The position numbers and the translations under genes were made by a program. From the NCBI RefSeq assembly GCF_000219625.1, contig NC_018202.1, positions 520,100-584,099 on the forward strand: a stretch of 64,000 nt of DNA. The letters run 5' to 3'. Positions 2,877-64,000 of the stretch are shown here, one piece after another (position 1 is the first letter of the stretch; each line of letters starts with the position of its first letter). Source of the stretch: Zymoseptoria tritici IPO323 (taxonomy: Eukaryota > Ascomycota > Dothideomycetes > Mycosphaerellales > Mycosphaerellaceae). The notes below the pieces were generated by a model, which was given only the letters and a program-made list of their open reading frames with translations, had not been told where the DNA came from and did not search any database.

Positions 2877-5800
2877 TAGTAAGCTTGTTAGCATAGATTG
2901 GCATAGTATAACCCCCCCTGCCAATGCTAGCTATTAGTGTTATTAGTATGCCATTAGCATGCCAGTCCAAATAAGGTATTCTAATAAGAGCTAGAAGGTA
3001 GTGTTGTAAATAGTAGATGAATTAAACGGCTCTATTAACTATTAACCTTACCCTAACTCTATAAGTCTACCTCCGTCGATACGAATAAGTGTTAGAAGGA
3101 CTGTTGCTAGCGCTGTTGCTTAAGATTAGCCTTAACATCGTCTACATTATTAAAGGCTAGTGTTATAATACTAGCTCTCTTCTTAACCGGTAGACTAAAT
3201 GTACTACGAAGGAAGGTATAGGCTTTAATAATGTCGCCGCTAAGCTATAAACGACGGTAGGTTATTATGTCTCTACTAGCGCTAAAGGACCTCTTAGGGT
3301 TGTCGCTTATTAAGGGGATTAAGAGGTAGTCGAATGCTATACGTAAGAGGTTTAGCTATTATTGTCGACGGTAGTACTAGTATTATAAGTAATCGAACGT
3401 AGGAATAGCCTTGTTGTATTTACCGCTTATCTACTAAGGGTCTAGCAATAGATTAGTCGTTAGATACTCCTTAAGCTCGTCGACGAGGGTAGTAGAAGGC
3501 TAGTAAGTTGTCTTAAGCCGCTTAAATTTACGTAGACGGCTATCTATACTATCCTTAGTTAGCACTATAGGTGTTGTTGTATATAATAGAGTAGCGGTTA
3601 CACCCTTATATTCGCTCTAGAGCTCTAGTACTTACTTATAAACTATATCGCTCTATCTAGCCTACTCCGGCTATTACTATTAACTATTAAACTACTACTT
3701 CTTTATTAAAGGGTTAAGGTAGACAGCGGTAAAGAGTATTAGTGTCTTGTTATATAGGGTGTAGTACTTCTTAGTCTTCTTCTACGCGTAGTTATAGTAG
3801 CCTAAGATATATTCGAAGGACTTGTCGTAGACTAGCTCCTCTACAAACTCGGTCTTAAAGTTGTCGATAGTGTCTAGGATAAAGCTAATAGTCGGATACT
3901 AGTCGAATAGGTTGCGCTAATTGCCTTACGAGTCTATAGTAGCTACCTCGAACGTCTTAAGGGCATCGTAAATGCGATCGAGCTACTTCTATTACTATAG
4001 CTTTAGCCGGTTGTCCTTAAGAGCCTTCTCCTACTTATGTTCCTTTAGCTAGCCCTTTATAAACCTCTTAATCCTCTCTTATAGCTCGAGAGCCCTCGTA
4101 ATTATGTAGTAGGTAGAGTTCTAGCGTATGTCGTTATCTTAGATAAGCTAAGAAGGTAGTTAGTAAGGTATTAAGGAAGGTGTAAGAAATAAGGTTAAAG
4201 ATTAAGGGTTACGGGAAGCGCGGCAGCGGAAAGTCCCTTATACGGGCCGCGTACGGGGGCTAATTATAAATTCGGAAATTAGCTAGTATAGCGTTATTTT
4301 AGAAACTTACCTTTAGCTTGTCGAATTGCTCTAAAACTCTACTAACAACAACACCTACGAATCGCTTAATCCTCTACGGTAATCCTCGAATAAACCGCAC
4401 CGTATTATATAGTATACTAACCGGCCCTTTCTCGCTCTAGAATGCCTCTACTACGTCGACCGCGCCCTTCTTAACCTTAGCCTCGAGAGCCGCTAACGCC
4501 TTACTAGCTCTAGCGCCGAGCAACAACGCCCTCGTATATAGATTCGTAACGTAGCTAAGGTAGCGTAGTCTATAAGTAGTCCGCTATACGGCGGTCTATC
4601 CTAGGTAGAGCTACTTAAGAAGAAGGTCGATTATAGTATCGTTAGTACTAATATTATCGCACATAAAGTATCCGAGCCGCTTTTAAAGGCTATATTCCTC
4701 GATAACTTCTATAAGAGCGGCCGCCTCGTTCTTAGCTAACTTCGTACTATAGGTCCTTCTAAAGGCTAGTAGCCTCGTTCTACGGTTACCTCTACTATCG
4801 ACGAAGTAAGCGAAGACGCTAAGGATCGAGTAGTTATTTAGCGAGGTCTAGCTATCGAACGAGAGATATATATTACTAATCGAGTCCCTTAGCTCTCGCT
4901 ATACCGCCGCCTTCTCCTTCGTATACGTATCTATTATCTACCCTCGAATCGTCGACGCCGTACGTAGTAAGAAAGAGCCTATTAAGGAGTTAAGGAAGGT
5001 AATAAGATCGCGGAAGTACTAGTTCTCGACTATTCGGAAGGCGACATAGTAATATACTATCTAGCGAACGAGGAGGTCTTTAAACTTAGTAATAGTATAG
5101 TCCTTAGTAAGCTATTAATAAACTATACCGCTATCGAAGGACGACTCGATTAATCCGGTAGTACTAATAATACGCTTACTAGTAGCTCTATCGAGCTAGT
5201 GTTTATAAAGTAAGTAGTTTAAAGTACTACTATTACCGTTATTACAATATAGTAAGGTCTGCTTACCTCCGCTAACCTCGTAGTAGTAGCAATAGAAGTA
5301 CTTCTTCGAGTCTCTTAACGACAATACTAGCTTACTAGCCTTCTATATAGTAGACTTCCCTCTCCTACTCTTATTACTCGGCGTAGCTATAGCTACATAA
5401 CGAGTATATTCGACGTCCTTAATTAAGAAGGTGTCCTTATAGAGGGTTCGGTCGTAACGAGGGTTAGCGACATTAAGGGTAATGTTATCGGTTATAGGCT
5501 TCCTTCGAAGGAGCGAGAATATAGTAACGGTAAGATAGTAATAGTAATAGTAGTAATAGCAATAATAATACAATTAATAATTAACTACTAATATATACGT
5601 AGGTATAGAGTCTACTATGTTATATAATAACACCCCTTATATTAACAATACCCTTATTAGTATTAGCATCTCGACATAGCATTAGTATAGTATAACCCCC
5701 TCTACTAATACTAGCTATTAGTACTATTAGCAATGCTAATAACTAATAGCATTACTAATACTAGCTATGCTAATAATATTCTATACTAATAAGCTTACTA
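2877..5800 (-). mobile_element. RIP-degraded full-length hAT transposon
   Basis: The element is 2924 bp, begins TAGTAAGCTTGTTAGCATAG and ends with the near-perfect inverse. It is flanked by 8-bp target duplications, which is diagnostic for the hAT superfamily. A subterminal motif (ATAGTATAACCCCC, about 2905 and 5690) is also repeated inside the ends in direct orientation. Base composition is extreme: CA and TG are nearly absent and TA is very frequent. If the RIP transitions are reversed, its terminal repeat matches the intact hAT at 48034-49023, whose end is CAGTGAGCTTGTT. The element is immobile by itself. Confidence 0.85.
3110..5573 (-). pseudogene. hAT transposase pseudogene (RIP-inactivated)
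   Basis: Read on the minus strand, the region gives a recognisable hAT transposase broken by many TAG/TAA codons. An N-terminal BED-like zinc-finger segment lies near 5400-5230 (FYCYY followed by LLYCNN). The family motif of the form ISxSFDxWTS lies near 4880-4800, with its Trp changed to TAG. A C-terminal dimerisation-domain motif (GDIIKAYTFLRST) lies near 3240-3200. Stops occur where Trp (TGG) or Gln (CAA/CAG) is expected. No intact transposase can be made. Boundaries are approximate because start and stop are mutated. Confidence 0.8.
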
Positions 5801-5808
5801 GTAGTGCT
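5801..5808. repeat. 8-bp target-site duplication, right copy (hAT)
   Basis: GTAGTGCT immediately follows the right terminal repeat and pairs with GTGGTGCT at 2869-2876. Confidence 0.75.
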
Positions 5809-7260
5809 AAAGTCTACGGATCGAATCCTCCGATACGTCGGACATAGTATGCCTAAGACCTTGCCCTATTAGCATAAACGATTATCGTGTCGCTTAGCGA
5901 AATATGCCTTAATTCTATAGACTGCCGTAGAAATGCTTCCCGAGCGCTTATAAATTCGAAGGAAAAGGCTAGGCTCCGGAGAGAATAGGGAGCTTCCGGC
6001 GCTAGACCTACTCCGTTCCGTAAGAGTTACTACTCCGCTCGTAGCGTAATTTGTTCCGCTTCTAGTATAATTAGATAGTAAGGAAAGACCGCGGTAATAC
6101 CTTAGTATATATAGTTACGATAATACGAGTAGTAACTTCTACGCCGCTTCGTACCCTCGTCGGCTAGCTCGAGTATATTGTTATTATCCTAACTATCGTC
6201 GAATCGCGTAGCCGTAGCACTCTAGTGTCCTCCTACTAAGGTATCTACTTTACTATACCCCTCTACCTCCCGCCCCTACTTCCTCTTCGTCTTCTATACC
6301 GCTCTATACTCCCGGGTAGCTAGCGGTGCTATCGTCTCTAGTAAGATGCTCGAGTAGACGTACTAAAAATAGCGGTTTATAGCCCGCCCGCCGAAGCTAT
6401 AGTTTCCCTTCCGGTTCCTAAAAGCTTAGCGTATCGTGTTCGTATAGAAATATAGCTCGGATAATTTAGCGTCGTAGCGTATAAAGGATTCGGAACGCGG
6501 ATTTGTTATATGCGCCTTCGCTATCGCTAACCTCGCTGTCGGCTAGACTAACTTAATTATAGAGTTACCTACTATAGAGTATATAACCTTAAACATACCG
6601 CTAACCTCGCTGCCCGAAAGCGAAGCAAGATAATGTAGCAGACTTTTAGAAAGAGAAGTAATAGTAGATTTTAGCGTATGCGGCGGAGAGGCAATAGTAG
6701 GTATTAATATATACGGCGGAGAAGACTAGTACACTTAGCGCACCGTTCCGAGCTTCGAGCTAACGATTATCTCTCCGGACGTCTAAGGCTATAAGCTTCC
6801 TCTATTTGTTGCTCGCCTAGGATAGACCTATAATAAAGCGATACCGTACATTTTCCCTCCTCCGTATCTACTTATTCTTATTATCCTATAAGTAATCTCT
6901 TTTTAGTATCTACGAACAGGACTACTACTTATCCCGTCGGCGTTAATCGTACCTATGCTCCGTATAAACGTAGTAGCCTTACGCGGAGTCTCGACGGCGG
7001 GTTCTTACTTAATCGTAGTAGGAGAGCTAGTATCCGATAGCGCCGCTACTCCGTCGGGACGTAGGGTAGAGGTAGGTAAGACGGCGCCGGCATATAGGGT
7101 AGAGGTAGGTAAGATGTTATCGGCACGTAGTATAGAGGTAGGTAAGATGTTTTCGGTACGTAGGGTAGAGGTAGGTAAGATAGCCTCGGGAAGGACTTAA
7201 AGTATCTACCGGATAATAAATTAGTAAAGTCTATCGGGATTAGTTACCGCAACGATTAAA
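5809..7260. other. RIP-degraded region between hAT and pseudogene
   Basis: This 1.4-kb block shares the TA-rich, CA/TG-poor composition of the hAT, but lies outside its target duplication. It was therefore itself a duplicated sequence that RIP attacked. Its right part (from about 6950) is the 3' portion of a coiled-coil gene paralogue. The left part contains no ORF or domain I can identify. Composition returns to normal near 7280. Confidence 0.6.
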
Positions 7261-28000: not shown

Positions 28001-28184
28001 GTAATAGGGAGACTCTTACGAGTCGAAGAAACGTAAGGCTAACGACGGAGAAGAAACGTATCTTAACTATCGACCCGCTAGAAAGGATAATTCCTATAGA
28101 ATCTTACTAACTAGTAACCTCGCCTTTACGAGCAACTCGTCCGGCGAATCCTTCGCTTTTTATAAAGGCTTAAATATATTTAAT

Positions 28185-31100
28185 ACTTAGGTTATCGACT
28201 CCGGCTATATATCCTACCTTATCGGAAGAAAGGATATCTTTATATTAATAACGCCTATTAAGGGTTATACCTCTTACGGCATAGGTAGCAACGCTATTAG
28301 CCCTTCTTATATTAGTAACATTCGGATACCTACTAAAGTTAACAGCAAACTATACTAGCTAAACATCTCGAACGTTAAATACTTACCTTAAGCGGGGGTA
28401 AATCTCCTCTCTCTCGAGATAATTTAGCCTCTCTTCGACAACATCCGCCCCTTTAAGAACGGTATGTCCTTTATTAAAGGAAACCGAGCATTTAATACTA
28501 TATTTAATAGTAGCTTACTTATCCTCGATACCCTTCCTACTTAACTAATACTAGGAGAAGACTTCTACCTCGCTACGTACGAAGTATAAGCTAGCTAGTC
28601 GTAGCTCTAGTACGAGCGTATAGGACATCTCGGCGAATAGAGCCTATAACGCCTTCGTTAGATAACTACTAGTATAGAACATAACCGTCTTAATAGGCTA
28701 TATCTCTATAAATTATACGTTATAGGCCGTTTTTACGCTAAACTATATTACGGACACATTAAACCTTCCGAAAAGAAACTCGAGCTACTCTATTTAGACT
28801 TAAAATACGGCCTAAGAAACACGCCTAGATACGACAAATTAAGATACTAGCTTACTATTATTAACGACTTTACGACGAACACCGACTATAAACCGTACGA
28901 ACACGTCCGAGATGTACTTAGTTACCTTTAATACTATCTAAATCGGTACGAGACAGATGTATTTAAGTGTCGCCGTATTCGCCTTAACTAAGGTAGCGAG
29001 TTCTTTATAACGCTGTTTAAAACGTTCTACTATAGCGCTAGAATCGAGCTCGAATTTACCTCTACGGAACAGAGCTAATTAAATAGTCTCGCCGAAGTCG
29101 TAAATAAGATTATTCTCGAGAAACTCGAACTAACGATATACGCCGGTAACATTACGTAGAAATAGTAGCCCGCCGTTGTTTAATTAATAGCCTACCTACG
29201 TAATCGTTCCCCTAATTCGAAGTATAGAATTACCGGCTACGAAGCCTTCTATAGCGAACGGCCAGACCTATTAAACATTCGAAAACTAGGCTCGAAAGCC
29301 TATTGCCTTACAAAAGAAGCTAAGGACCGCCTAGGTTATATCGACCGTATAGAGATTAGGTAGCTTCTTAGTTTTAAGGGCAACCGCTAATACCTTATTA
29401 TCTGTCCGCATTAGAAAGAGCCTCGCTAGGTTTAAAATGTCGTGTTTAAAGAACACCGTAAACACGTCCGAATCCCGGAATCTAAAAGCGATACGAGTAA
29501 AGATAAGGCTCCTCCGCCTAAGCGTATAGAACGCCCTATTAGACTCCTTAGTCCGGTTTAACGTTCTAGGCCTATACTAATTTTATTACTAATTTTATTA
29601 ACCGCCGCTCTAGGGGGAGAGAAAATAGATAAATTAGCGGACAATAAAAGCGACGATAATCTAACTCCTCCTCCTCCGTCGCCGCCTAAAATAACACTAA
29701 CGCCTCCGCGAGGGCAAACTCCTTCGTCTTCTAAAATAACACTAACGCCTCCGCGAGAGCTAATACCTCCGCGAGAGCTAACGCCCCCGCCGCCTCCGCT
29801 AGTAGAAACTATTAACGGCGTTCTTCTAGAAGGAATAAAGCGACAACGGTAGAAGAACTTACTCTTCCCTAAAGCTAAATACGCCCTATTCTACGTACGT
29901 ACGAATCCCTTAACGAAGACTCTCGACTAGTATCCTACCCTATAGCAAATAATAATATATACGTTTCTCGCTACTACCGCCGCGGCCTTTAAACCCTTTA
30001 AGCCGCGAACTATACCGGAAGCGAAGAATAGTATATACTAGTCTAAATAGTATAGCGCTATAGGCGAGGAAGTTAAGTCTCTACGGAAAAATAAGACCTA
30101 GCGATTAAAGAAGCGCTCCTAAGTTACTTCGACCGCGAATATCCTACTAGGGAGATAGGTCTTTAAGCTTAAACGAGGACCGAACGGCGAGATCCTTAAG
30201 TAGAAGGCTAGATAGGTTATTAAAGGATATAAATAAGAAGAGGGCTCAGACTACACCGAGACCTTCGTATCTATTATTAAACTAATAAGCTATAAGGCTA
30301 TCTTTACTATTACCGCCGTACTAGACTACGAGATCGAACAGATAGACGTTAAGACTACCTTCCTCTACGGGCTTATTAAGGACACCGTCTACGTCGAACA
30401 GCCGGACGTTTATCTACTTAATCGTACTCTTTACGGCCTTAAATAGTCCCCTCGAACCTAGTACGAGACATTAACCGCCTACTTTAAGAAGATCGGGTTT
30501 AAGCTACTCGACGCCGATATTAGCGTCTTTATCCGAGACAATATCTTTATCGCGGTATACGTTAATAATCTACTTATCGTTAGGCCTTTAAAGAAAGAGA
30601 TTAGCGGCATTAAAGCCTAGCTCTCGAAGAGATTTAAAATATCGGACCTTAGCCCCTACGCCTACTACCTCGGAATAACTATACGAAGAGACCGCGTTAA
30701 CCGAAAGATCTACCTTAGCTAATAGGCCTATATTAAGAAGTTCCTCCGCGACTATAATATATAGGAATAGAAAGTAAAGACTACGCCTATAGATTCGTCC
30801 ATAAAAATCGAACTAGTAGAAGAAGGGTACACCGCTTTAGATAAACTACGTAAGAAATACTAATCGGTAGTAGGATTACTAATGTACGCTATACTTAGAA
30901 CACGCCTAGATATCGCCTACTTAGTATCTATCGTTAGTCGGTTCTACGCTAACCCTACGGAAACGTACTAGAAGCTCGTTAAGCGGATTATAGCCTACCT
31001 TCGTTATACTATTTAATTCGAACTTATGTTTTAGGGAGACCTACGACTACTAAGCGGGTATATAGACGCCGACTAGGCTAGAGACATCGAGATACGCCGC

Positions 31101-31565
31101 TCTACGTTAGGCTAGATATTTAGCCTTAGTAGCGGAGCTATTAGCTAGTCGTCTAAACGATAGACGAGGGTAGCGCTATCGATAGTCGAAGTAGAATATA
31201 TAGGACAAACGTAGGCTACGAAAGAAGCTATCTAGTTAAAGTCGCTACTTAATTAACTCCTTCCCGAAGGAAATTAAGGACTATAAGCGACGATTATATA
31301 CTACGATAACTAAGGCGCGATAGTACTCGCGAAGAACCCCGCTTTCTATTCTCGATTAAAACACTTTAGCGTAGACACTTACTTTATCCGCGAGCGGGTA
31401 TAAGAAGGAGATGTCGAGCTAGTATAGGTCGAGACTAAGAAGATAATAGCGGACGGCCTTACTAAACCGCTTCTAAACCGACAATTCTACGTATTTCGGA
31501 AGGCTATCGGATTATTACTCCCGTCTACGGTAGTAATACTAAAGTAGCTAGAAGACATAAAATAA
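28185..31565 (+). pseudogene. copia pol: protease, integrase, RT, RNase H (RIP-inactivated)
   Basis: The protease active site VIDSG lies at about 28190. The integrase region holds GHIKPSEKK and the DNGTEF-like GSEFF (about 28750-29100). The RT region holds DVKTTFLYGLIKDTVYVEQP and LYGLK (about 30345-30440), then YVNNLLI at about 30560 where the family has YVDDLLI. RNase H follows with SGYIDADWA near 31060-31080 and KHFSVDTYFIRE near 31355. Both catalytic Asp of the RT box are Asn, each by a G-to-A transition. Gln and Trp codons are frequently TAG/TAA. No frameshift is evident over RT/RNase H. Confidence 0.85.
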
Positions 31566-31849
31566 GTTAGCCGACTAGGGGGAGTCTAACTAGGGGGAGC
31601 CGCGCTAAGACGGCGACGGCGACATCGTTATTAACGCTATTAATTTTCTACGATAACGAGCCCTAAGCTAATACCGTCTAGAAGGATCCTACGAAGTTTA
31701 AGGACAAGTTAACCGATCGTTTATTAAGATATCGCTATCGACCCTAAATCCTTATATAAAAGTTCGAGTTATATAATCCTCGGCGCTAACCTTAGCACTA
31801 GAGTATAAGGATTTTCTAACTTTAGAACTAAACTTACTTCCTTTCTCGA

Positions 31850-32930
31850 ATATCCGATACTTCTAAGACCTACGTAAACAATTATAGAGGACACCCCTTT
31901 CTACCGAAACTATATATATAGAACCGAGTCTAGATTTAAGCTTACGGAGAACGAATTTGTCCGCCCTACCTTAAGAAGAATTAACTTAGACTAGTTAATA
32001 CCTCTGTCCGATATAGCTAACTTTCTAGACACCGCTACCGGAAGAGTTCTTCGCTAGAGAATTAAATAGCGACGCCCCTTACTCCCTAAAAACCTTACTA
32101 GTATAGACTTTAGTATACTTACCCTAGAGACTCTTAAAAGAATCTATAGGGACTACTTTATATCTACCGAGCAATTAAAGGACTACCGCTAAATAGCTAG
32201 GATACTATAAGCCTTTAACTAGGGATCTAAGGAGAAATACGGTTATAAGAGACTATATATTTACCCTAAGCTACTCGCCTTCTTATCCGACTAAGAACGA
32301 GTAAACTAGTTAACTACGTACGACGACGCTAAAGACTCGGACCTTTAGACCGCTTTTTAGATAGCTAGTAAGACGAGGAACAGACTGCTCGAGCCCTATA
32401 CTACTTAGACCTAGATCGTACTAGTTAAGAGCCCCTAAGCTAACTAGGTAAAAGACTCTAACTAGAGCTAACGCCCGTAGTACGTATAGGCCTTTACAAT
32501 CGTTAGTAGACTAACTAAACATAGGAAGAACCTCTTTATCTACGACTACGACGGCGGAAGCCTTATACGTCGACATAAGGAAGCTAAGCTAAATAAAATC
32601 TACGGAAGTATCGTCCGCTTCTATAACAAAGTCCGGTCTACCTAGCGAATTAACCGAGTGTTTATAGGTAATATCTATAACGATTTTATTACCGACACTA
32701 TAGACTAGGCTTAATTTAGCGACACTAGTATTAAAATCGATAAGAATTACTATATCGGACATACTATACGCTAGGTTTATAAGATAAGCTAGATAAAGGA
32801 CCGTTACTTCGATCCTAACGACAAGAAGTACGGCCTTAACGATCTAAGGTAGGAATCCTTTGTTGAAATAGAATACTTAACGGAACACTATACTACTAAG
32901 TAAGAGTAAGCTAGTACTCTTCCCTTATAG
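31850..32930 (+). pseudogene. Extra 3' ORF in the copia element, unrecognised
   Basis: Between the end of RNase H and the 3' LTR one plus-strand frame reads as coherent protein for about 350 codons, interrupted only by RIP-type stops. It includes TENEFVRPTLRRINLD, KEKYGYKRLYIYPKLLAFLS, RKNLFIYDYDGGSLIRRHKE and DRYFDPNDKKYGLNDLR. A polypurine-like CTAGGGGGAG occurs at about 31575, where a typical copia would end, and another just before the 3' LTR. The ORF may be an acquired gene or a third element-specific protein. I do not recognise the family. Confidence 0.5.
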
Positions 32931-54582: not shown

Positions 54583-56690
54583 ATGAAGAGACGGATCAGC
54601 GGCGACACGATTGTTATTAAGGATGACGAGGACAACATTGTAGTAGGACCTACTTCGAGGCCTTCTAAGAAGCCGCGGCTTCAGAATGGACAATTGCAGA
54701 TGGACATTTTGCGCGCTGGAGCTTCCCTAAGCAATGCGATTGTGATTAGTCCTGCGGCTTCTGAGCAGGACCGAGGCGAGTCGAAACAATAAGAAGAAGA
54801 TGGAGTGCAGAGAGCGGTTTAGTATAAGATGGAATCGGGCGAGGAGTAGACGAGCCAAACGGTTGGAGATCGGGAAGTTGAGGACCAGGGCCTACTACGT
54901 ACGCCTAGACAACAAAGGCTCAGGACTGCACTTACTCCTCTAGCGACCGAAACAGAACTAGGGGACGAGCCTGCTGCTAGAGCAGAGCCTGGGGCCACAG
55001 CTCGTTCCGGGAAACGACGGCAGCTTCGCTACTTAAGCCACATCTCCATTGTAGGACCAGCATTTCCGAGAAGCGCTTACCACGGATACAAACCTCCTTT
55101 GCAACCTGTAAACGAGGTCGAAGCAAGCCTAGACTTGAGTGCAGGCTTCTTCGCAGCTGCGAAGTCTGCTGGCACCGAAACTCTGGAATGTGCTACTTTC
55201 AAACTCGATCAATTCTCGGTATATATGGCGGACGGACGACGCGCATCGGACCTCGTTACTCTTGAGAAACTGCGGCAATCAAACTATGCAGAGTTCTGTT
55301 TCGATGGCATTCTGTCGGCAGGTAACAAAAAGCGCTACGTGCAGGGCGTGCGGTTCGAGATCTTGGCTATTAGTAGGTACGGCGACCTGGACTTTACAGA
55401 TTTTGCCGGTAGCATCTGTATTTAATCGAAGCTGCAGTCGAAAGCGTCCGCTCTGTTTGGTCATTGGTATAAGCTGGGAACGCCTGCACCGGAATATCGT
55501 CGATTCTACGAGCCGTTCCTTTGGCTAGCACGGTTCGGGAAGCACTTCGTCGACTACCTCCTCAGCAACTAGCAGATCACCCTTGGACATTTCCGCAGAC
55601 GATTTTACTAATGGCTGACTGGACTCTACGGCGATGACACTAGCTTCAACTAATGGCTAGCTGAATGCAAACTTAAAGACTTCTACACGACCATTGCCGC
55701 AAATGTCGGCTTCCTTTGGAAAGAATGCTGGGATATTAATAACAAAGAGTCTGGATTGTGCCGACAACCGATCTGGGGTGAAGTCGATCCCTATAATCTT
55801 ACAGCTATCCTAGCGCAGCCAAACAAGGAGTTGCGAACGATCGTTACGCCTTTTGTCTACCAGTGCTTTCGACATATGTACTTCGGTGACCAGCTGGAAG
55901 AGCGGACAATCACAGACCGAAATGTGCTGAAGAAGTCGGATGAGCTAAAAGCAAGGCTCAGACTGACGCCGCGACGAGCATCTCCGAGTGCACCGCCAAT
56001 GCAAACCTTAACGCCTAGGAGTATGAGCCGAAGCGAATCTCAAGAGGGGAACAAAGCAGTCACGGTGAACACAGGGGATGTCGTATGCGTCGCGCCGGAT
56101 GTCAGTACCAAATGGGGGATCAAAGCGCACGCATGGTATGCCTATGTTCAGAACGTGCACACTCGCAAAGATCGTACTTCGCTCGATGTTCTCTGGCTGT
56201 ACGAGCCAAAGGACACTACACTTGGCAAAGCCTATTACCCTTTTGCGAATGAGCTCTTCTTGTCCGACAACTGTAGCTGCGGCACATCGGCTCTCGACCT
56301 GGATTGCGTCTTGGATAAGGCAGACGTATGTTGGTATGCTAAGGATCCATATCAGCAGGGAGGACACTTCGTGCGCCAGAAGTTCCGCACAGTTCACGAG
56401 CAAGACACATACGACTTCGTTGCAATTCAAGCAAGCGACTTTAGGTGCCAGTGCAAGCATGACGTTCCTATATTCGACGAGTGCCGGAGCAAATATGCAA
56501 TTGGTGACACCGTCCTCGTCCGCGAATGGAATGACGACCTTGACGAGGACCGGCTCCAGCCTACCCAAATTATCGAGTTCGATACCCAGAAGCGGCGCGT
56601 CGTTCTGCGTCAATTCTTGCGGAAGAGCGAGCAGCAGACGGGCGCGAAAGCTAGGCCGAACGAGCTGGTACTACTTATAGCGTAGCTCGG
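54583..56690 (+). pseudogene. DIM-2-like DNA methyltransferase, N-terminal half, RIP-inactivated and truncated
   Basis: A single plus-strand frame from the ATG at 54583 carries seven stops (54790, 54820, 54847, 55423, 55570, 55609, 55651), all TAA or TAG at plausible Gln codons, and no frameshift. The product matches the N-terminal half of fungal DNMT1-type methyltransferases as I know them. A replication-foci-like segment is at 55160-55400 (KLDQFSVYMADG, EFCFDGILSAGNKKRYVQG). A BAH domain is at 56040-56450 (GDVVCVAPD, VLWLYEPKDT, YYPFANELFLSDNCSC, RQKFRTVHEQDTYDFV). Part of a following BAH-like segment reads YAIGDTVLVREWNDDLDE. Homology stops after RPNELVL. The catalytic methyltransferase domain is absent and the sequence changes abruptly to AT-rich subtelomere. 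It cannot encode an active enzyme. Confidence 0.75.
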
Positions 56691-56722
56691 GTCGACGAAG
56701 TCGACCCGAGCGGAGCTATAAG
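56674..56722. repeat. 49-bp hairpin at the methyltransferase truncation point
   Basis: Two 23-nt arms with three mismatches surround a GAA loop. The inner 12 bp (GCTCGGGTCGAC and GTCGACCCGAGC) pair perfectly. It sits exactly where methyltransferase homology ends and AT-rich sequence begins. Confidence 0.85.
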
Positions 56723-57189
56723 GCGATTTTTCGCGAAGCGACGAGTCGTTCGAGAGGGCTTTAGGGAATTTTCTATAAGCCCTTAAGGCTTATAGATTAA
56801 GGAAAAATTAAGAGACGTCGAAAAAGTACTCTCTTTAGGAAGCTAAAATTATTTTAAGATAATCGGTATTCTAGATATAATTTTCTAGAGCTTACTATAA
56901 TTTAGAATCCTTAGCTAGTATTTTTATTAGAATTAGAATACTTAAAGAAAGAAGAGAAAAATAGAACGAGGGCTAGAAAAAAAGATTAGAGCTTAGAAAA
57001 ATTAAGAGTAGATATCTACATAAATAGCCTCTTTTAGGACTTTATAGTTAATATATAGGGTTATTAGAATAAATAGTAGCCTTCTTAAATACTATATAGA
57101 GTTAAAGGGGCGTTAAAAGTATATAAACTACTTATATAATACTAAGAAAATATTAGAAGATCCCTAAGAGTAAGCTACTACTATTTTTA
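56723..57189. other. AT-rich junction sequence
   Basis: TA-rich, CA/TG-depleted sequence with no ORF. It is transitional between the hairpin and the satellite and contains diverged satellite-like fragments (AGAGCTTA, TTCTATAGAGC). Confidence 0.4.
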
Positions 57190-59160
57190 TATTTACTATA
57201 AGAATTACTAGAGACTAGCGACTATTTTTCCTAGGCTATATAGATACTAAGAAGGGTTAGAAAAAGAGTAGATAGGTAATAGAAATTCTATAGAGCCTAG
57301 AAAAAATCGATCGGTAATATTAGAAGAGATTAGTATTAATAGATTTCTTTAGAGCTTAGGAGATTTACTAAGGACTAGCTACTATTTTTCTAAGATTATA
57401 CTAATAGTAAGGAAGCTATAAAAAATAACAGTTAGGTAGTAGGAATTCTAAAAAGCCTATAAGAAATTAGTAAAAAATTTAGATAGGACCTAGATTTAAG
57501 CAAATTCTCTAGAGCTTATTAGATTTACTAAGGACTAGCTATTATTTTTCTAGGGCTATATAGATACTAAGGAAGCTAAAAAAAATAGTAGTTAGGGTAT
57601 AGAAATTCTATCGAGCGTAAAATAAATTATCGAGTACTTCTTAGGGAGATAAGTTATAAGGAAATTATCTAGAGCCTATTAGATTTACTACGGACTAGTT
57701 ATTATTTTTCTAGGGCTCTATAGATGCTAGAAAGGCTATAAAAAATAGCAGTTTAGTTATAAAAATTCTATAAAGCTTAAAAGAAAGTGTCGAGGAATTC
57801 TTAGTAAGATAAGTTATAGTTAAATTATCTAGAGCTTATTAGATTAACTATAGACTAGCTACTATTTGTTTAAGGCTATATAGATACTAAGAAAGCTATA
57901 GAAAATAATAGCCGGGTAATAGAAATTCTATAGAGCTTAAAAGAAATCGTTAAAGAATTATTAGGGAGATAAGTTATAAGTAAATTATCTAGAGCTTATT
58001 AGGTTTACTACGGACTACTTACCATTTCTCTAGGGCTATATAGATATAAAGAAAGCTATAGAAAATAGTAGCTAAGTAGGAGAGACTTTATAGAGCTTAA
58101 AAGAAATCGTTCAACAATTCTTAGGGAGATAAGTTATAAGCAAATTATCTAGAGCTTAGTAGATTTACTACGGACTAGCTACTATTTTCTTAAGGGTATA
58201 TAAATACTAAGAAAGCTATAGAAAATAGTAGCCGGGTAATAGAAACTCTATAGAGCTTAAAAGAAATCGTTAAAGAATTATTAGGGAGATAAGTTATAAG
58301 TAAATTATCTAGAGCTTATTAGGTTTACTACGGACTACTTACTATTTCTCTAGGGCTATATAGATATAAAGAAAGCTATAGAAAATAGTAGCTAAGTAGG
58401 AGAGACTTTATAGAGCTTAAAAGAAATCGTTAAACAATTCTTAGGGAGATAAGTTGTAAGCAAATTATCTAGAGCTTAGTAGATTTACTACGGACTAGCT
58501 ACTATTTTCTTAAGGGTATATAAATACTAAGAAAGCTATAGAAAATAGTAGCCGGGTAATAGAAACTCTATAGTGCCTAAAATAAATCGGCGAGAAATTC
58601 GGATATAGTCTAGAGTTAAGGAAATTCTTTATAGCTTATTAGATTTACTAAGGACTAGTTATTATTTTTCTAGGGCTATATTAATGCTAAGTAAGCTATT
58701 AAAAATAGTAGTTAGGGAATAGAACTTCTATAGAGCGCAAAAAAAATTCTTAAGTAACTCTTAGTAAGATAAGTTATAAGTAAATTATCTAGAGCTTATT
58801 AGACTTACTATAGACTAGTTACTATTTTTAAGAGGCTATATAGATACTAAGAAAGCTATAAAAAATAATCGCTAGGTAGTAGATACTCTATAGCGCCTAG
58901 AATAAATTAGTAAGTAGGTCTTAGGGTAGGTAGGGTAAAAGAAATTCTCTAGAGCTTTTTAGATTTATTAGGGACTAGCTATTAATTTTGTAGGGCTATA
59001 TAGATACCTAATACTCTATTAAAAATAGTAGTTAGGTAATAGAAATTCTATAGAGCTTAAAATAAATTATTAAGAAATCTTTAGAGAGATAAGTTATAAA
59101 TAAAGTATCTAGAGCTTATTAGATATACTATAGACTAGCTACTATTTTCCTAGCGTACCT
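57190..59160. repeat. 160-bp AT-rich satellite, about 13 units
   Basis: The landmark ACTA.GGACTAGCTACTATTT recurs at about 57211, 57371, 57530, 57690, 57850, 58010, 58170, 58330, 58490, 58650, 58810, 58970 and 59130, giving a period close to 160 bp. In the middle a 320-bp dimer is repeated almost exactly (about 57990-58310 and 58310-58630), a higher-order structure. Both strands are full of stops. It lies directly 3' of the recombinase-like gene. Confidence 0.9.
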
Positions 59161-59403
59161 AAATACTATTAAAACCTTAAAAATATAGGATAAGTCTAAG
59201 TATATTATAGCTAGCTTAAGGTTAATTACTCTAGTTCTAGGAATCTATATTATATATTCTCTTAAGCTATAGAGTTCCTAGTATTTATTATAAGGATATA
59301 CTACTAAGAAAGCGTAAGGAAAGATAGTACTACTAACGAAGAAGTAAGAAATATATAGATCTTCTATATAAATATACCCTAAGCCTCTAGCTTTCTAATA
59401 ATC

Positions 59404-62400
59404 CTATATCTTTTTCGGCCGTCCCCTCTTATTAGTCTTAACCTTCTTAGGCCTACCTCTACCCTTTTTAGCTATCGGAGGATTAGAAGATCCCTTATTA
59501 TTATCGTTACTACTACTTCTATTACTAAACGAGCGCTTAGATCCTCTAGATATAGAGCGGCTTATAGCTTTATTATCTTCTTTATCCTTAGAGTTACTAC
59601 TCGAGTTCTTTTCGATATTAATAGTAGGAATATCTATATCTTCTATAGCCTTAGAGCTCGACTGTTTCTTAACTATAGGTTTAGAGCTAGTGGGTTTTAG
59701 CTTAGGTTTAATATTATTAGAGGATACGCTACTAGCGCTTTTATAAGAGCTACTATTACTATTACTACTTAAGATAATAGGAGCCTTTCCTTTATTACTA
59801 TCTTTCTTTAGTACCGGATTACTTTCTACTTTAGTATTAATAGTCGTTATATAATCTTCGATAAGGGTTTCTTTCGAAGGGCTATAGACTTTATTATTAA
59901 GTAGACGAAGAGCTTTAGGGGTAAGTCGATTTTTCCGGGTATTTTCTTCGGTTAAAAGAGTCTTAGGACTACTAAATATATTCTTAAAGGTAAGAGATTT
60001 GTTAGAACCCGAGCTAGGGTTACTTAGATTATCTTTAGAGGACTCGAGTACCTTAGGAATAGTAAGCGTTTTATTATCCGAATTATTACTTAGATTAAGA
60101 CTACTAGAGTCGATCGAAGATATAGAAGAAGAGGTAGTACTATCCTCTTTATTACTAGCCGTCTTATAGCTTTTTACTCGAGAGATATACTCTACTTTAT
60201 CTTTTAAGATCTCTCTTATCGATCTATCCTCTAGTAAATTAAAGTAGTTAAAGTATAGCTTAGAGAAAGCTAGGCTTCGGTTCGTAGTATCTCTAGTCTT
60301 ATTACTAAAGTAGTTTGTTTCTCTAGCGTAGTTTAGATTCGCTACTTTAGTAGAATGTCCCGCTAGTATATCCTCGATATTAGATTGTTCTCGATTACTT
60401 AATTTTATAGCCGTTTTATTCGATCGAGGGCTTAATAGCTCCGGCCTCTCTACTAGTATACGCTCTTTAATTATATAGGTTATTAAATGTCTATACTCTT
60501 TAATACCAATTCCTTTATTAAAGTACTTTTTAGTTATATCCTTTAGAGCTTTACTTAGAGTAAGGCTCGTAATATTCTTATTATAAAGCTTAAAGAAAAG
60601 CTTTGTTTCTAGGGTTATAACGTCTAGATAGTTAATCCGTAGATACTCTATTAGCGGAATAATAAAAGTAATATAGTAGACTATTATCCTCGTTAGGCGT
60701 ATAGGTAGAAACCGAATAGTATTAGTATTTAGGGTAGTAGAGTCCCGGTTCTTATCGAGGTTACTCGTATCTAAAGCTATTAAATTATTACTCTTATCGA
60801 GGAAGATATCTCGTAGGGATCCTAGACTAGTATTTCGAAACTTAAGTAGAATAACCGCTTTCCCTCGTAAGGGACTACTCGATAATAAGTAGATATTTAG
60901 CGCTAAAGATACTAAGAAGTTATAGATCTTTTTAAAGTAGCTTAGAATACCGTCTTTAATACTAGCCTTACTACCTAGATTAGGATCTAGTAAGAGATCT
61001 TTATTTATAAACTTCTTAATAAGAATATCCTTATATTTTACTAGGTACTTAGAGCTCGTTAGATCCTCTAAAGGCGTATTATTATCTTTACGATCGAGAA
61101 TCTTACTTAGGTCTAGGTCTATTATATTATCCTCCTTCTTATTAAATAGAATAATTTCTCTAAAGAATAGATCTTCTAGATCTTCTAAAGATTTTATAAA
61201 TAAGGTCCGTAGCGTATTTATATTAATCTTAATATTATCTATAGCTAAAGTATCCGGATCTATATCGTCTATAGGCTTATAGCTACTAATCTTATTATAA
61301 TTATAATACTTTAGCTTAATCCGAAGGCTATAGTACTCGGTAAAGTAGTTACTAGCATTTATAGTTAATCTAGACTCGATAAACTTTAAAGCGTTATCTA
61401 CTCTAGTAGTAGTAGTACTTAGAAGTACTAGATACTTTAAAGTAAAGAGGCGGCTAGAGTAGATTAACTTAGATAGTAGAGATTGTACCGAAGTAGTCTT
61501 TCTAAATATAATAGTATTCTTATCTTCTAGGGCTAGGATCTTAGCCGGATCTAAGCTCGCTATAATTAAATAAGTTATTAAGGGATTATTAAAGCTACTA
61601 TTCTCGTAGAATACTATATCTATTCCTAGAGTAAGAAGATAATCTAGAGTCTCTAATAAAACTCTCTTTAGATCTTCTTTAGCTCTATTACTATCCTCTA
61701 TTAAATACGTACTAATAGTAGATACTTTAAATAAAAGACTACTAAGAGAAGACTCTATAGTAGGCTTAGAGTAGTAGGCTTCCGGCTCTCGATATATAGT
61801 ATAGAGATAGACGAAGAAGGTAGCGATAGGCTTAAGGTAAGACTTTCTCGTAGCTATATCTAGCTCTTTAAAGGCCTTAACTTCTAGATTATTATTTCCC
61901 GGGTTATAATTATTAAGAGCCTTCCTAGTATTTATAGAGAGATCTTCGATAGAACTAAAGGTCTCTAAGCCTAGATTTATAGTCGTATAATAGATAAAGG
62001 CTAGTAGCCTATTCTTAAGAAAGATATTAGGATCTATTATATTTAGAAGTAGTTCTAGGTCCTTATCCTCTAGATATCGGAAGTAGTAGGTACTTCTATT
62101 AAAAAACTCTTCCTCTCTATTTATATTAGATTCCTTAGGCGCGTTAGAAAGCGTATCCTTCTTTATACTACTAAAGACGTCTTTATACGTATCTAGATTT
62201 AGATCCGTATTAGATATACTACTAGTATAGGTATTACTATTCTCTTTAATAAACTTAGGTATAAACCTATACTTTAGATTATCCTTAAATCCTTTAATAG
62301 ATATAATAGGAACCTCTCTTAGAACGTTAGGATTAAGAGTAGTCGTATTTTTATAGTTATGTTTTTTATTTAGATGTCTTCGTACTTCTTTAGCGCTCGG

Positions 62401-62926
62401 ATTAAGATAGAGACAAAATCGGCATTTATATCCGTCTAGGTTTAGCTCTAGGTTAGGATAGTAGTAGGTATTATAGCTTATATTACTAAGAAACTCCTTA
62501 GAATTCTTTTCCTCTTTAATAAGTATATCTTTACCCTCTATAAAGCTCTTAATTAAATCTAAAATAGAGGTAGAGTTATAATATTCTCTAGTCTCCTTAT
62601 TATTCTTATTCGAATGTCCCTATTATATATAGTTAGTAGGGTTTCTAATATACTCTCTAGACTATACTTACCTTTAAATGTTTTACTATATTATTAATAT
62701 CCTTATTAAGAGTAGTAGAACACTCCGAGCAAATTAATAGCTTTAGATCCGGATTATAGTCTAGCGGTAACCCTTCTAAGGACTCTATACTACTAGGAGT
62801 AATAGCTTTAAAGGTCTCCTTAGTATAAGGCCTATTATCCTCTAGTAGTTTATTAAATTCTTCTATAGTAAGAGGCCTAATTCTATCTATATTCTTATAA
62901 TAGATACTACTAGTAGTAGAAGACAT
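59404..62926 (-). CDS. TG/CA-depleted subtelomeric gene: zinc fingers, tyrosine-recombinase-like domain, AT-hooks (1156 aa)
   Basis: Exon 1 is 62926-62672 (85 codons) and exon 2 is 62619-59404 (1071 codons plus stop), joined over a 52-nt intron in phase 0. Exon 2 has no ATG, GTG, TTG or CTG in frame, so start-codon-based calling misses it. I translated it in full and found no stop. Zinc finger 1 is C66, C69, H83, H87 and spans the splice junction, which supports the intron. Zinc finger 2 is C151, C154, H167, H172. Residues about 655-860 have the layout of the tyrosine-recombinase domain seen in telomere-linked RecQ-type fungal proteins: R670 (SSPLRGK), K708, R795/H796 (KEYRHLI), H840 (LAGHSTK) and Y849 (NLNYAR). 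The C-terminal 300 residues are Ser/Asn/Lys-rich and end in two AT-hooks (RGRP at 1139-1142 and 1150-1153). There is no helicase domain. The protein has one Met and no Trp; its only four Cys and six His are the residues named here. The likely role is DNA binding and possibly recombination at chromosome ends; activity is inferred. Confidence 0.8.
62620..62671 (-). other. 52-nt intron of the recombinase-like gene
   Basis: Donor GTAAGT directly after an AAG codon, branch point TACTAACTA, acceptor AATAG before GGA, phase 0. Removing it places H87 four residues after H83 and completes the first C2H2 finger. Confidence 0.85.
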
Positions 62927-63300
62927 CTAGTAGTAATAAAGAGTATAAGAGGTAGTAGTAGTAAAGAGTATATAAGGTAGTAGTAGTAAAGAGTATAAAA
63001 GGTAGTAATAGAGTAGATAATATAAGAGAGAAGGTTAAGAAAAGGAAGAGAAGAGTAAGACGAAAACTAAAGGTTTATATAGTCTATTCTATTTCTAAGT
63101 ATATAGTATAGCGGTTTTAGAATATAAGATATAGCGGTCTAGAGATATAAGATATAGCGGTTTTTAAGTATATAGTATAGTAGTCTAGAGATATAAGATA
63201 TAGCGGTTTCTAAGTATATAGTATAGCGGTCCTAAAGTATAGAGTATAGAATATAGAGTATAGCGGTTTAGAGTATACTAGTATCTAGATATACTATAGT
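62927..63300. repeat. Short tandem repeats upstream of the recombinase-like gene
   Basis: Immediately 5' of the gene, AGTAGTAAAGAGTATA(A)GAGG units of about 34 bp occur three to four times (62931-63015). From 63090 to 63270 there is a GATATAGCGGT plus TAAGTATATAGTATA motif repeated about six times. They lie in the presumed promoter and 5' UTR. Confidence 0.7.
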
Positions 63301-63866
63301 AGCTTAGAACTATATACTATAAAGGTCTCTAAATATATAGTATATAGTATAGGCGCCTAGAAGTATAGAGTATTATATATTAGGGCTCTATTATATATAA
63401 TATAAAAGCCGAGAACCTAATAGATTAATACTTTAAGTATAGCTTATATATATAGTATACTTTAGCTAGTAGTTCTAGAGTATAGATAAAATATAGGGTA
63501 TATACTATCTCTTATTCTTCTTAGACTACTTAGAGCTACGATATAGAGATAAATTAATTAACTAAGGTAAATATAAAGCGTAACCTATATAATAAGAATA
63601 TTAGTAAATAGAATAAAGATATAGAAGTAGATAGGGTAGAACCCGAATCCGCGTAGCGCTAACCCGGTTAATAGGTTTAATTAAGTCGACGTAAAGCGTA
63701 ACCCGTTAAATAGGTAATAGTATTAGGGTTAATAGATTTAATAAAATCGACGCGAAGCGTAACCCGTTAAATAGGTAAAAGTACGAGTTAGGGTTAAGAC
63801 GTATTAGTAGTAGAGTTTAGAGTAGGTTAAAGTCGTAGGGTTAGGCGCGCGCGTAAGCGCGCGGCG

Positions 63867-63867
<1 letters not shown>
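63301..63867. repeat. Telomere-adjacent AT-rich sequence with a recurring AAGCGTAACCCGTTAAATAGG motif
   Basis: The motif occurs in variants near 63650, 63695 and 63755, each with a TCGACG(C/T)(A/G)AAGCG lead. Several isolated TTAGGGTTAA or GTTAGGGTTA stretches (63725, 63790, 63838) look like degenerate telomeric repeats. The GCGCGCGCGTAAGCGCGCGGCGG block just before the telomere is a sharp GC island in AT-rich DNA. No gene is seen. Confidence 0.6.

Positions 63868-63927
<60 letters not shown>
63868..63927 (+). repeat. Variant telomeric repeat (TGAGGG)10
   Basis: Exactly ten perfect TGAGGG units lie directly proximal to the canonical telomere. Confidence 0.97.
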
Positions 63928-63928
<1 letters not shown>

Positions 63929-64000
63929 TAGGGTTAGGGTTAGGGTTAGGGTTAGGGTTAGGGTTAGGGTTAGGGTTAGGGTTAGGGTTAGGGTTAGGGT
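63928..64000 (+). repeat. Telomere (TTAGGG)12
   Basis: Twelve perfect TTAGGG units plus one base run to the end of the window with the G-rich strand 5' to 3' outward, so position 64000 is at or close to the physical chromosome end. Confidence 0.97.

Follow-up and report, generated by a model that had tools for sequence, protein, structure and literature searches.

Gene structure and composition

The stretch of Zymoseptoria tritici IPO323 DNA analyzed here (the window, 64,000 bp) is the right end of the 584,099-bp contig 17 (G000:C17:520100-584099), and it terminates in a telomere. Close to this tip lies a two-exon gene with a coding sequence of 1156 codons (3,471 bp with the stop codon), and comparison with the whole genome (39,686,251 bp in 21 contigs) places it within a 7.3-kb element, probably a transposable one capped by its own telomere. 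From the tip inward the element consists of telomere, 5′ palindrome, leader, gene, an array of 160-bp units and a 3′ palindrome, with the gene transcribed inward (Table 1). An earlier note on this DNA had described the 1156-codon frame, and its coordinates, length and composition are right (1071 plus 85 codons, with a predicted 52-base intron); it missed the element with its precise end and, as it now looks, the presence of the gene in print under an apparently wrong name. The intron end signals are unbroken in all six distinct full-length copies of the gene, and in the homologs P0006, P0008, P0009 and P0011–P0013 the finger that is split here is uninterrupted.

There are several unusual features. 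First, CA and TG dinucleotides are nearly absent, with observed/expected ratios in exon 2 of 0.03 for CA and 0.06 for TG, versus 0.8–1.2 at 10–26 kb of the window. Second, the frame is open over a length that chance does not provide: at the stop rate of the flanks (0.110 per codon) the probability of 1071 open codons is 6e-55, and the longest open run in 300 Markov surrogates is at most 108 codons. The CA/TG-poor stretches at 4001–6000 and 28001–32000 of the window stand in direct contrast, with 33–168 stops in every one of the six frames, as the earlier note had said of the CA/TG-depleted neighbors. Third, the protein contains one Met, no Trp, four Cys, six His and three Gln (the Gln alone had escaped mention). 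The Cys and four of the His form two C2H2 patterns, Cys66/69-His83/87 and Cys151/154-His167/172, and His796 and His840 sit within a predicted recombinase motif. Fourth, codons with CA or TG survive almost only where they are needed. A codon free of both is possible at 1142 residues, and at just two of these is a CA/TG codon nevertheless used; the 14 residues unable to avoid them are Met1, Cys66, 69, 151 and 154, His83, 87, 167, 172, 796 and 840, and Gln464, 830 and 1071. The avoidance extends across codon boundaries, pyrimidine-ending codons having T 377 times versus C twice before A, and C 28 times versus T twice before G. Finally, the gene is hidden from any ORF finding that relies on start codons, since ATG occurs once in the coding sequence (codon 1) and GTG, TTG and CTG not at all; a listing of open reading frames (ATG, GTG or TTG starts, at least 50 amino acids) yields just one, of 89 amino acids, on the gene strand.

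Copies of the gene and purifying selection

The genome contains nine copies of the gene, seven at full length and two truncated on the 5′ side, with 89–100% protein identity and all located within 17 kb of a contig end. The copies at the two ends of contig 17 are identical over the gene, which leaves six distinct full-length copies and eight distinct copies overall. The other 10 of the 19 matches in the genome search comprise an open partial copy at 59%, an N-terminal piece at 56%, four matches to helicase-bearing relatives, two 50-residue remnants of the tail (with one stop each) and two 22–25% matches with stops.

The gene is under purifying selection, with a ratio of nonsynonymous to synonymous change (dN/dS) far below 1. 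Nei-Gojobori (NG86) values are 0.089–0.189 over codons 1–1011 (35 non-identical pairs, 28 of them distinct), the comparison of codons 1–270 being one of the six distinct full-length copies. Transition bias makes NG86 by itself exaggerate the constraint, and the corrected figure is 0.245: from the transitions and transversions seen, 51 of the 169 biallelic sites would be silent by chance, and 109 are (P = 4e-20). This bears out the strong purifying selection suggested in the earlier note, which had named a ratio near 1, or stops in most copies, as telling against it; all nine copies are free of stops. A neutrally evolving open frame is ruled out by the stop statistics together with this excess of silent changes.

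The CA and TG dinucleotides that remain are distributed in the same sense. Taken together, the eight distinct copies have 34 CA/TG sites within codons 1–1011, 14 in codons where they are obligate and 20 elsewhere, and 13 of the 14 are fixed across copies as against one of the 20 (P = 2e-7). The invariant sites are those of Met1, the four Cys, the six His, two Gln and one codon boundary. Dispensable CA/TG dinucleotides thus vary between copies, and those at the zinc ligands and recombinase histidines are kept. In the protein sequences of two relatives (P0003 and P0004) Tyr replaces the last zinc-ligand His, the change expected from C-to-T mutation of a CAT codon.

The predicted protein

The gene likely encodes a tyrosine recombinase behind two zinc fingers, as judged from a structure model (m2849918fb6c7) and conserved alignment columns. 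The model has a predicted template modeling score (pTM) of 0.80 and a mean predicted local distance difference test score (pLDDT) of 76, falling below 50 in the loop with His840 and Tyr849, and its predicted catalytic fold is of the Cre/Xer/Int type. By position and motif the putative active-site set is Arg670, Lys708, Arg795, His840 and Tyr849, with nine residues from His840 to Tyr849, which we take to be the Arg-Lys-Arg-His/Trp-Tyr residues of the family. In an alignment of homologs the two Arg, the Lys and the Tyr are invariant where covered, His840 is present in seven of 14, and homologs from other assemblies carry the same residues.

Foldseek against PDB places XerA at the top, at E above 0.02, and against viral models gives no match at E up to 0.001; PDB sequence searches with exon 2 and with a profile return only zinc fingers and chance matches. 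The Pfam Integrase model does not match the gene, neither DEAD/Helicase_C nor any other helicase family matches either exon at E up to 10, and no reverse transcriptase family matches in the scan of the gene. OrsD (PF12013) scores 17.3 and 13.0 bits for the exons taken alone, the domain being split by the intron, against a gathering cut-off of 26.6 bits, and reaches 31.5 and 34.2 bits in the relatives P0014 and P0015. The basic GRPKK tail is a weak match to an AT-hook (E 0.64, Pfam scan). A second, profile-based protein search yielded six proteins, of which the three not seen before all have a helicase.

Element architecture

Table 1. Features of the telomere-capped element at the right end of contig 17 (window coordinates).
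Feature	Coordinates	Strand	Remarks
Telomere	63866..64000	+	Variant TGAGGG repeats, then TTAGGG up to the contig end
5′ palindrome	63846..63873		CGCGCGCTTACGCGCGCG (read inward); adjoins CCCTCA repeats
Telomere-side leader	62927..63845		Between gene and 5′ palindrome; 12 genome matches to 62927-63880, all within 23 kb of a contig end
Exon 1	62672..62926	-	85 codons; first C2H2 finger Cys66, Cys69, His83; ATG and Cys/His codons the same in six distinct full-length copies
Predicted intron	62620..62671	-	52 bases, GTAAGT...CTAAC...TAG; splicing would add His87 to finger 1
Exon 2	59404..62619	-	1071 codons plus the stop; carries the second C2H2 finger, a helical core, the predicted tyrosine recombinase domain and a basic GRPKK tail
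Predicted tyrosine recombinase domain	60220..61302	-	Arg670, Lys708, Arg795, His796, His840, Tyr849; structure model and conserved columns
160-bp unit array	57197..59153		About 12 copies
Inner terminal 361 bp	56671..57031		Also without the gene beside telomeric repeats on other ends (short copies)
3′ terminal palindrome and TAG	56671..56722	-	52 bases, 20 bp paired, imperfect; exact inner end, joint 56670|56671; fold z-score -7.3

The outer side of the element, in copies where it was read, is telomere or telomeric repeats, sometimes overlain by other repeats. The 5′ palindrome is present at 11 sites in the genome (10 exact and one with a single mismatch), including contigs 13 left and 8 right with their helicase-bearing relatives of the gene. 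Over the 6094 bp compared (window 57907–64000 against L001) the two ends of contig 17 have the same sequence, yet their flanks differ past the end of the element. Two copies cut at the 5′ side (L016:3963-5455 and L019:6170-8851) are joined straight to CCCTAA repeats, and are apparently old chromosome ends covered later by other repeats. In the contig 4 copy (L020:6937-6989) the terminal palindrome has at its center three bases that are reverse-complemented relative to the other copies, as if the loop had flipped; this is a single case.

The inner end and its target sites

The inner end was found at at least 18 sites, 14 of them no more than 7.6 kb from a contig end and the other four at 11–23 kb. 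In 18 of 18 it breaks off at the identical base, beyond which the DNA differs, the next base being G in 15 and T in three. For 13 of the 18 sites an element-free counterpart is present elsewhere. No counterpart was found genome-wide for the joints of contigs 3 right and 13 right, nor for those of contigs 4, 6 and 18 left in a search that covered part of the genome; where the flanks are repeated (contigs 17 left and 6 left), only alignments reaching the joint were used.

In 12 of the 13 closest counterparts the two bases before the joint are AG (P = 4e-14, with AG at 1/16 each), and the base directly before it is G in all 13, the exception to AG being contig 2 right (ACG). The counterpart of contig 13 left is diverged (73–74%), and certain copies of it read TAG|A. 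On contig 18 right the joint falls in the coding region of another copy of the same gene: a short copy is joined within the gene copy, with telomere directly outward. The TAG|G joint and AG|G target resemble a 3′ splice site and a proto-splice site, which is possibly a coincidence. The short copies without the gene had been considered as proof of mobilization in trans, and were dropped as such because their outer starts lie near telomere-like CCTAA.

A second type of palindromic terminus occurs at six places. Three of these share one and the same end, two more abut G despite a variant end, and the sixth is truncated inside the terminus. The target is AG|G at all three joints with a counterpart. 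In two of these termini (L039:682-1253 and L023:8676-9247) the palindrome CGGGTATACCCG is followed by TATAAGGTAG, with AG|G joints once in the gene described here and once in the terminal region of its element.

Origin and maintenance of the element

We regard it as probable that this two-exon gene, with its likely recombinase product, belongs to a telomere-capped transposable element whose palindromic inner end is joined to NAG|G sites, so that the telomere of the element becomes the new tip. On this view the recombinase would bind at the terminal palindrome and link this to subtelomeric NAG|G sites, the protein being the presumed joiner, and the distal tip of the recipient would be replaced rather than lost afterwards. 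The arrangement on contig 18 right fits such a replacement, with later loss of the tip as the alternative.

Copies at many chromosome ends would be struck repeatedly by repeat-directed C-to-T mutation at CpA. Repeat-induced point mutation (RIP), possibly together with Dim2-dependent mutation, may have removed nearly every tolerable CA/TG, and new hits would now mostly land on essential codons and kill the copy concerned; the copies most likely stay intact because spread to further ends requires a copy that works. The simplest account is that no silent or tolerable targets are left and that mutation of the others is lethal to the copy. Of the earlier note's suggestion, exposure to RIP under purifying selection stands, while "adapted to resist" is better worded as exhaustion of the targets, with the remainder held by selection. 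The action of RIP is deduced from the CA/TG pattern together with published accounts of this species, and a mitotic Dim2-dependent pressure is indistinguishable from it here. In the parts consulted, those accounts describe RIP (PMC4522978) and a mitotic, Dim2-dependent CpA mutation pressure (PMC8016269), and both report inactivated subtelomeric dim2 copies; the present gene stayed open. It may exemplify a way in which a repeat can persist under RIP, unlike those dim2 copies (PMC4522978 and PMC8016269, as consulted), and it amounts to a natural saturation experiment, in which repeat-directed mutation appears to have tried nearly every CA/TG of a 3.5-kb gene and the survivors mark the likely essential codons.

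Several other explanations deserve consideration. The gene could be a host gene for telomere upkeep, a domesticated chromosome-end recombinase kept by selection on the fungus, with its spread a by-product. The low dN/dS in every pair of copies, the telomere-adjacent location and the helicase-bearing relatives on other ends would all suit this. However, low dN/dS is seen in selfish elements too, an exact inner end against unrelated flanks is a trait of mobile elements, and there is no such frame in the first 10 kb of contigs 1, 2, 9, 10, 11 and 21, nor does the genome search list a copy there; we therefore consider a host function unlikely.

It seems similarly improbable that the sequence is a passive part of the subtelomere, spread solely by homologous exchange or break-induced copying in the manner of yeast Y′ elements, with the protein doing an unrelated job. 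Several observations would suit exchange of this kind: the contig 17 ends are identical over the length compared, the copies form mosaics (N-terminal variants link contigs 3 left and 20 left, and a different C-terminal end is common to 20 left, 20 right and 4), and long subtelomeres are common to chromosome pairs according to the part of PMC4522978 consulted. But homologous copying gives neither one exact end against 18 flanks nor AG at 12 of 13 joints, and it does not give a joint inside the gene of another copy.

An RNA-mediated element, with a fixed 3′ hairpin end and 5′ truncation like a long interspersed nuclear element (LINE) or Penelope and a reverse transcriptase acting in trans, is very unlikely. 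The 3′ end is indeed constant with a strong hairpin, several copies are 5′-truncated, and telomere-linked retroelements are present in the genome (PMC4522978, in the part seen); yet the predicted intron is kept in seven full copies, the 3′ joints lack a poly-A or telomeric tail, and the protein is a predicted recombinase without a reverse transcriptase match. Finally, a dead, mutated repeat left open by chance, although it would share its CA/TG depletion with the dead-looking repeats of the window, can be dismissed on the chance of the open frame, the nine open copies, the same residues in homologs of other assemblies and, decisively, the excess of silent changes.

Comparison with known systems

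The telomere-capped element shares features with several known groups and departs from each. Starships carry a tyrosine recombinase near the outer end that is transcribed inward, and a predicted fungal tyrosine recombinase near the outer end and reading inward is likewise found here; however, this element is 7.3 kb long, telomere-capped and has no other gene that we noticed, and the DUF3435 captain family (PF11917) does not match the gene at E up to 10, its only genome-wide matches at E up to 1 being on contigs 14 and 7 and at no copy of the gene. Cryptons are fungal DNA elements with a tyrosine recombinase, and we know of none with a terminal telomere or long palindromic end. No GCR1_C-type family is among the Pfam matches listed for the gene, although not all Cryptons carry this domain. 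Yeast Y′ elements, which spread by homologous recombination and encode a helicase, are also subtelomeric, beside telomere repeats and on many ends, but the present element has one exact inner end against unrelated flanks. Among the bacterial telomere resolvases, the protelomerase TelA is a weaker match than Cre or Xer, and the tip here carries a normal TTAGGG telomere in place of a closed hairpin. Helitrons encode a Rep/helicase protein and end in CTRR after a hairpin; they were rejected, as the hairpin is followed by TAG here, the joint is mostly NAG|G, and no Rep or helicase family is among the Pfam matches listed.

The gene very likely is the telomere-linked "RecQ helicase" of PMC4522978. 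The part of that report consulted describes a subtelomeric open reading frame of about 3.2 kb, first seen on chromosome 12, with low GC and a coding sequence of 3,480 bp (3,471 bp here), in 13 copies (seven full and six truncated) on nine chromosomes. It also describes a RecQ pair common to chromosomes 8 and 13, which fits the relatives found here. That part connects the gene neither with a recombinase or an element end nor with selection or AG|G joints, and Cryptons are mentioned separately. In open-licence PMC literature, mostly as titles and the starts of abstracts, we found no tyrosine recombinase linked to this gene or to telomere-linked helicases, and no report there of OrsD together with a tyrosine recombinase.

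With the telomere-linked helicase (TLH)/RecQ family the gene has in common a subtelomeric multicopy location and an N-terminal region; fingers and recombinase-like core are common to it and the helicase-bearing relatives, at whose ends the 5′ palindrome is found as well. It differs in that DEAD/Helicase_C is clear in the relatives on contigs 8 and 13 and not matched here, and in having His840 where six helicase-bearing homologs have Arg. Two helicase-bearing relatives (L014:907-5991, minus strand, and L015:3804-8735, plus strand) have frames that stay open for 1696 and 1644 codons and combine OrsD-like fingers and a recombinase-like core with DEAD/Helicase_C; they too are poor in CA/TG (0.15–0.19 of expectation), and both contig ends bear the 5′ palindrome of the element.

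We suggest tentatively, as a proposal nearly as likely to hold as to fail, that telomere-capped tyrosine-recombinase transposons form a class whose members exchange chromosome tips by joining a palindromic end to AG|G, that the fungal telomere-linked RecQ helicases belong to it and have gained a helicase, and that Cys, His, Met, Trp and Gln have all but vanished from the proteins of the family because every dispensable target has been consumed by repeat-directed mutation. Such AG|G joining would offer a mechanism for the spread of fungal chromosome tips and telomere-linked helicases, and the published label of RecQ helicase would be corrected to that of a predicted recombinase. One of the two unclonable gaps published for chromosome 18 (PMC4522978, in the part consulted) is apparently flanked by the leader and the inner end of the element, and may hide a further copy.
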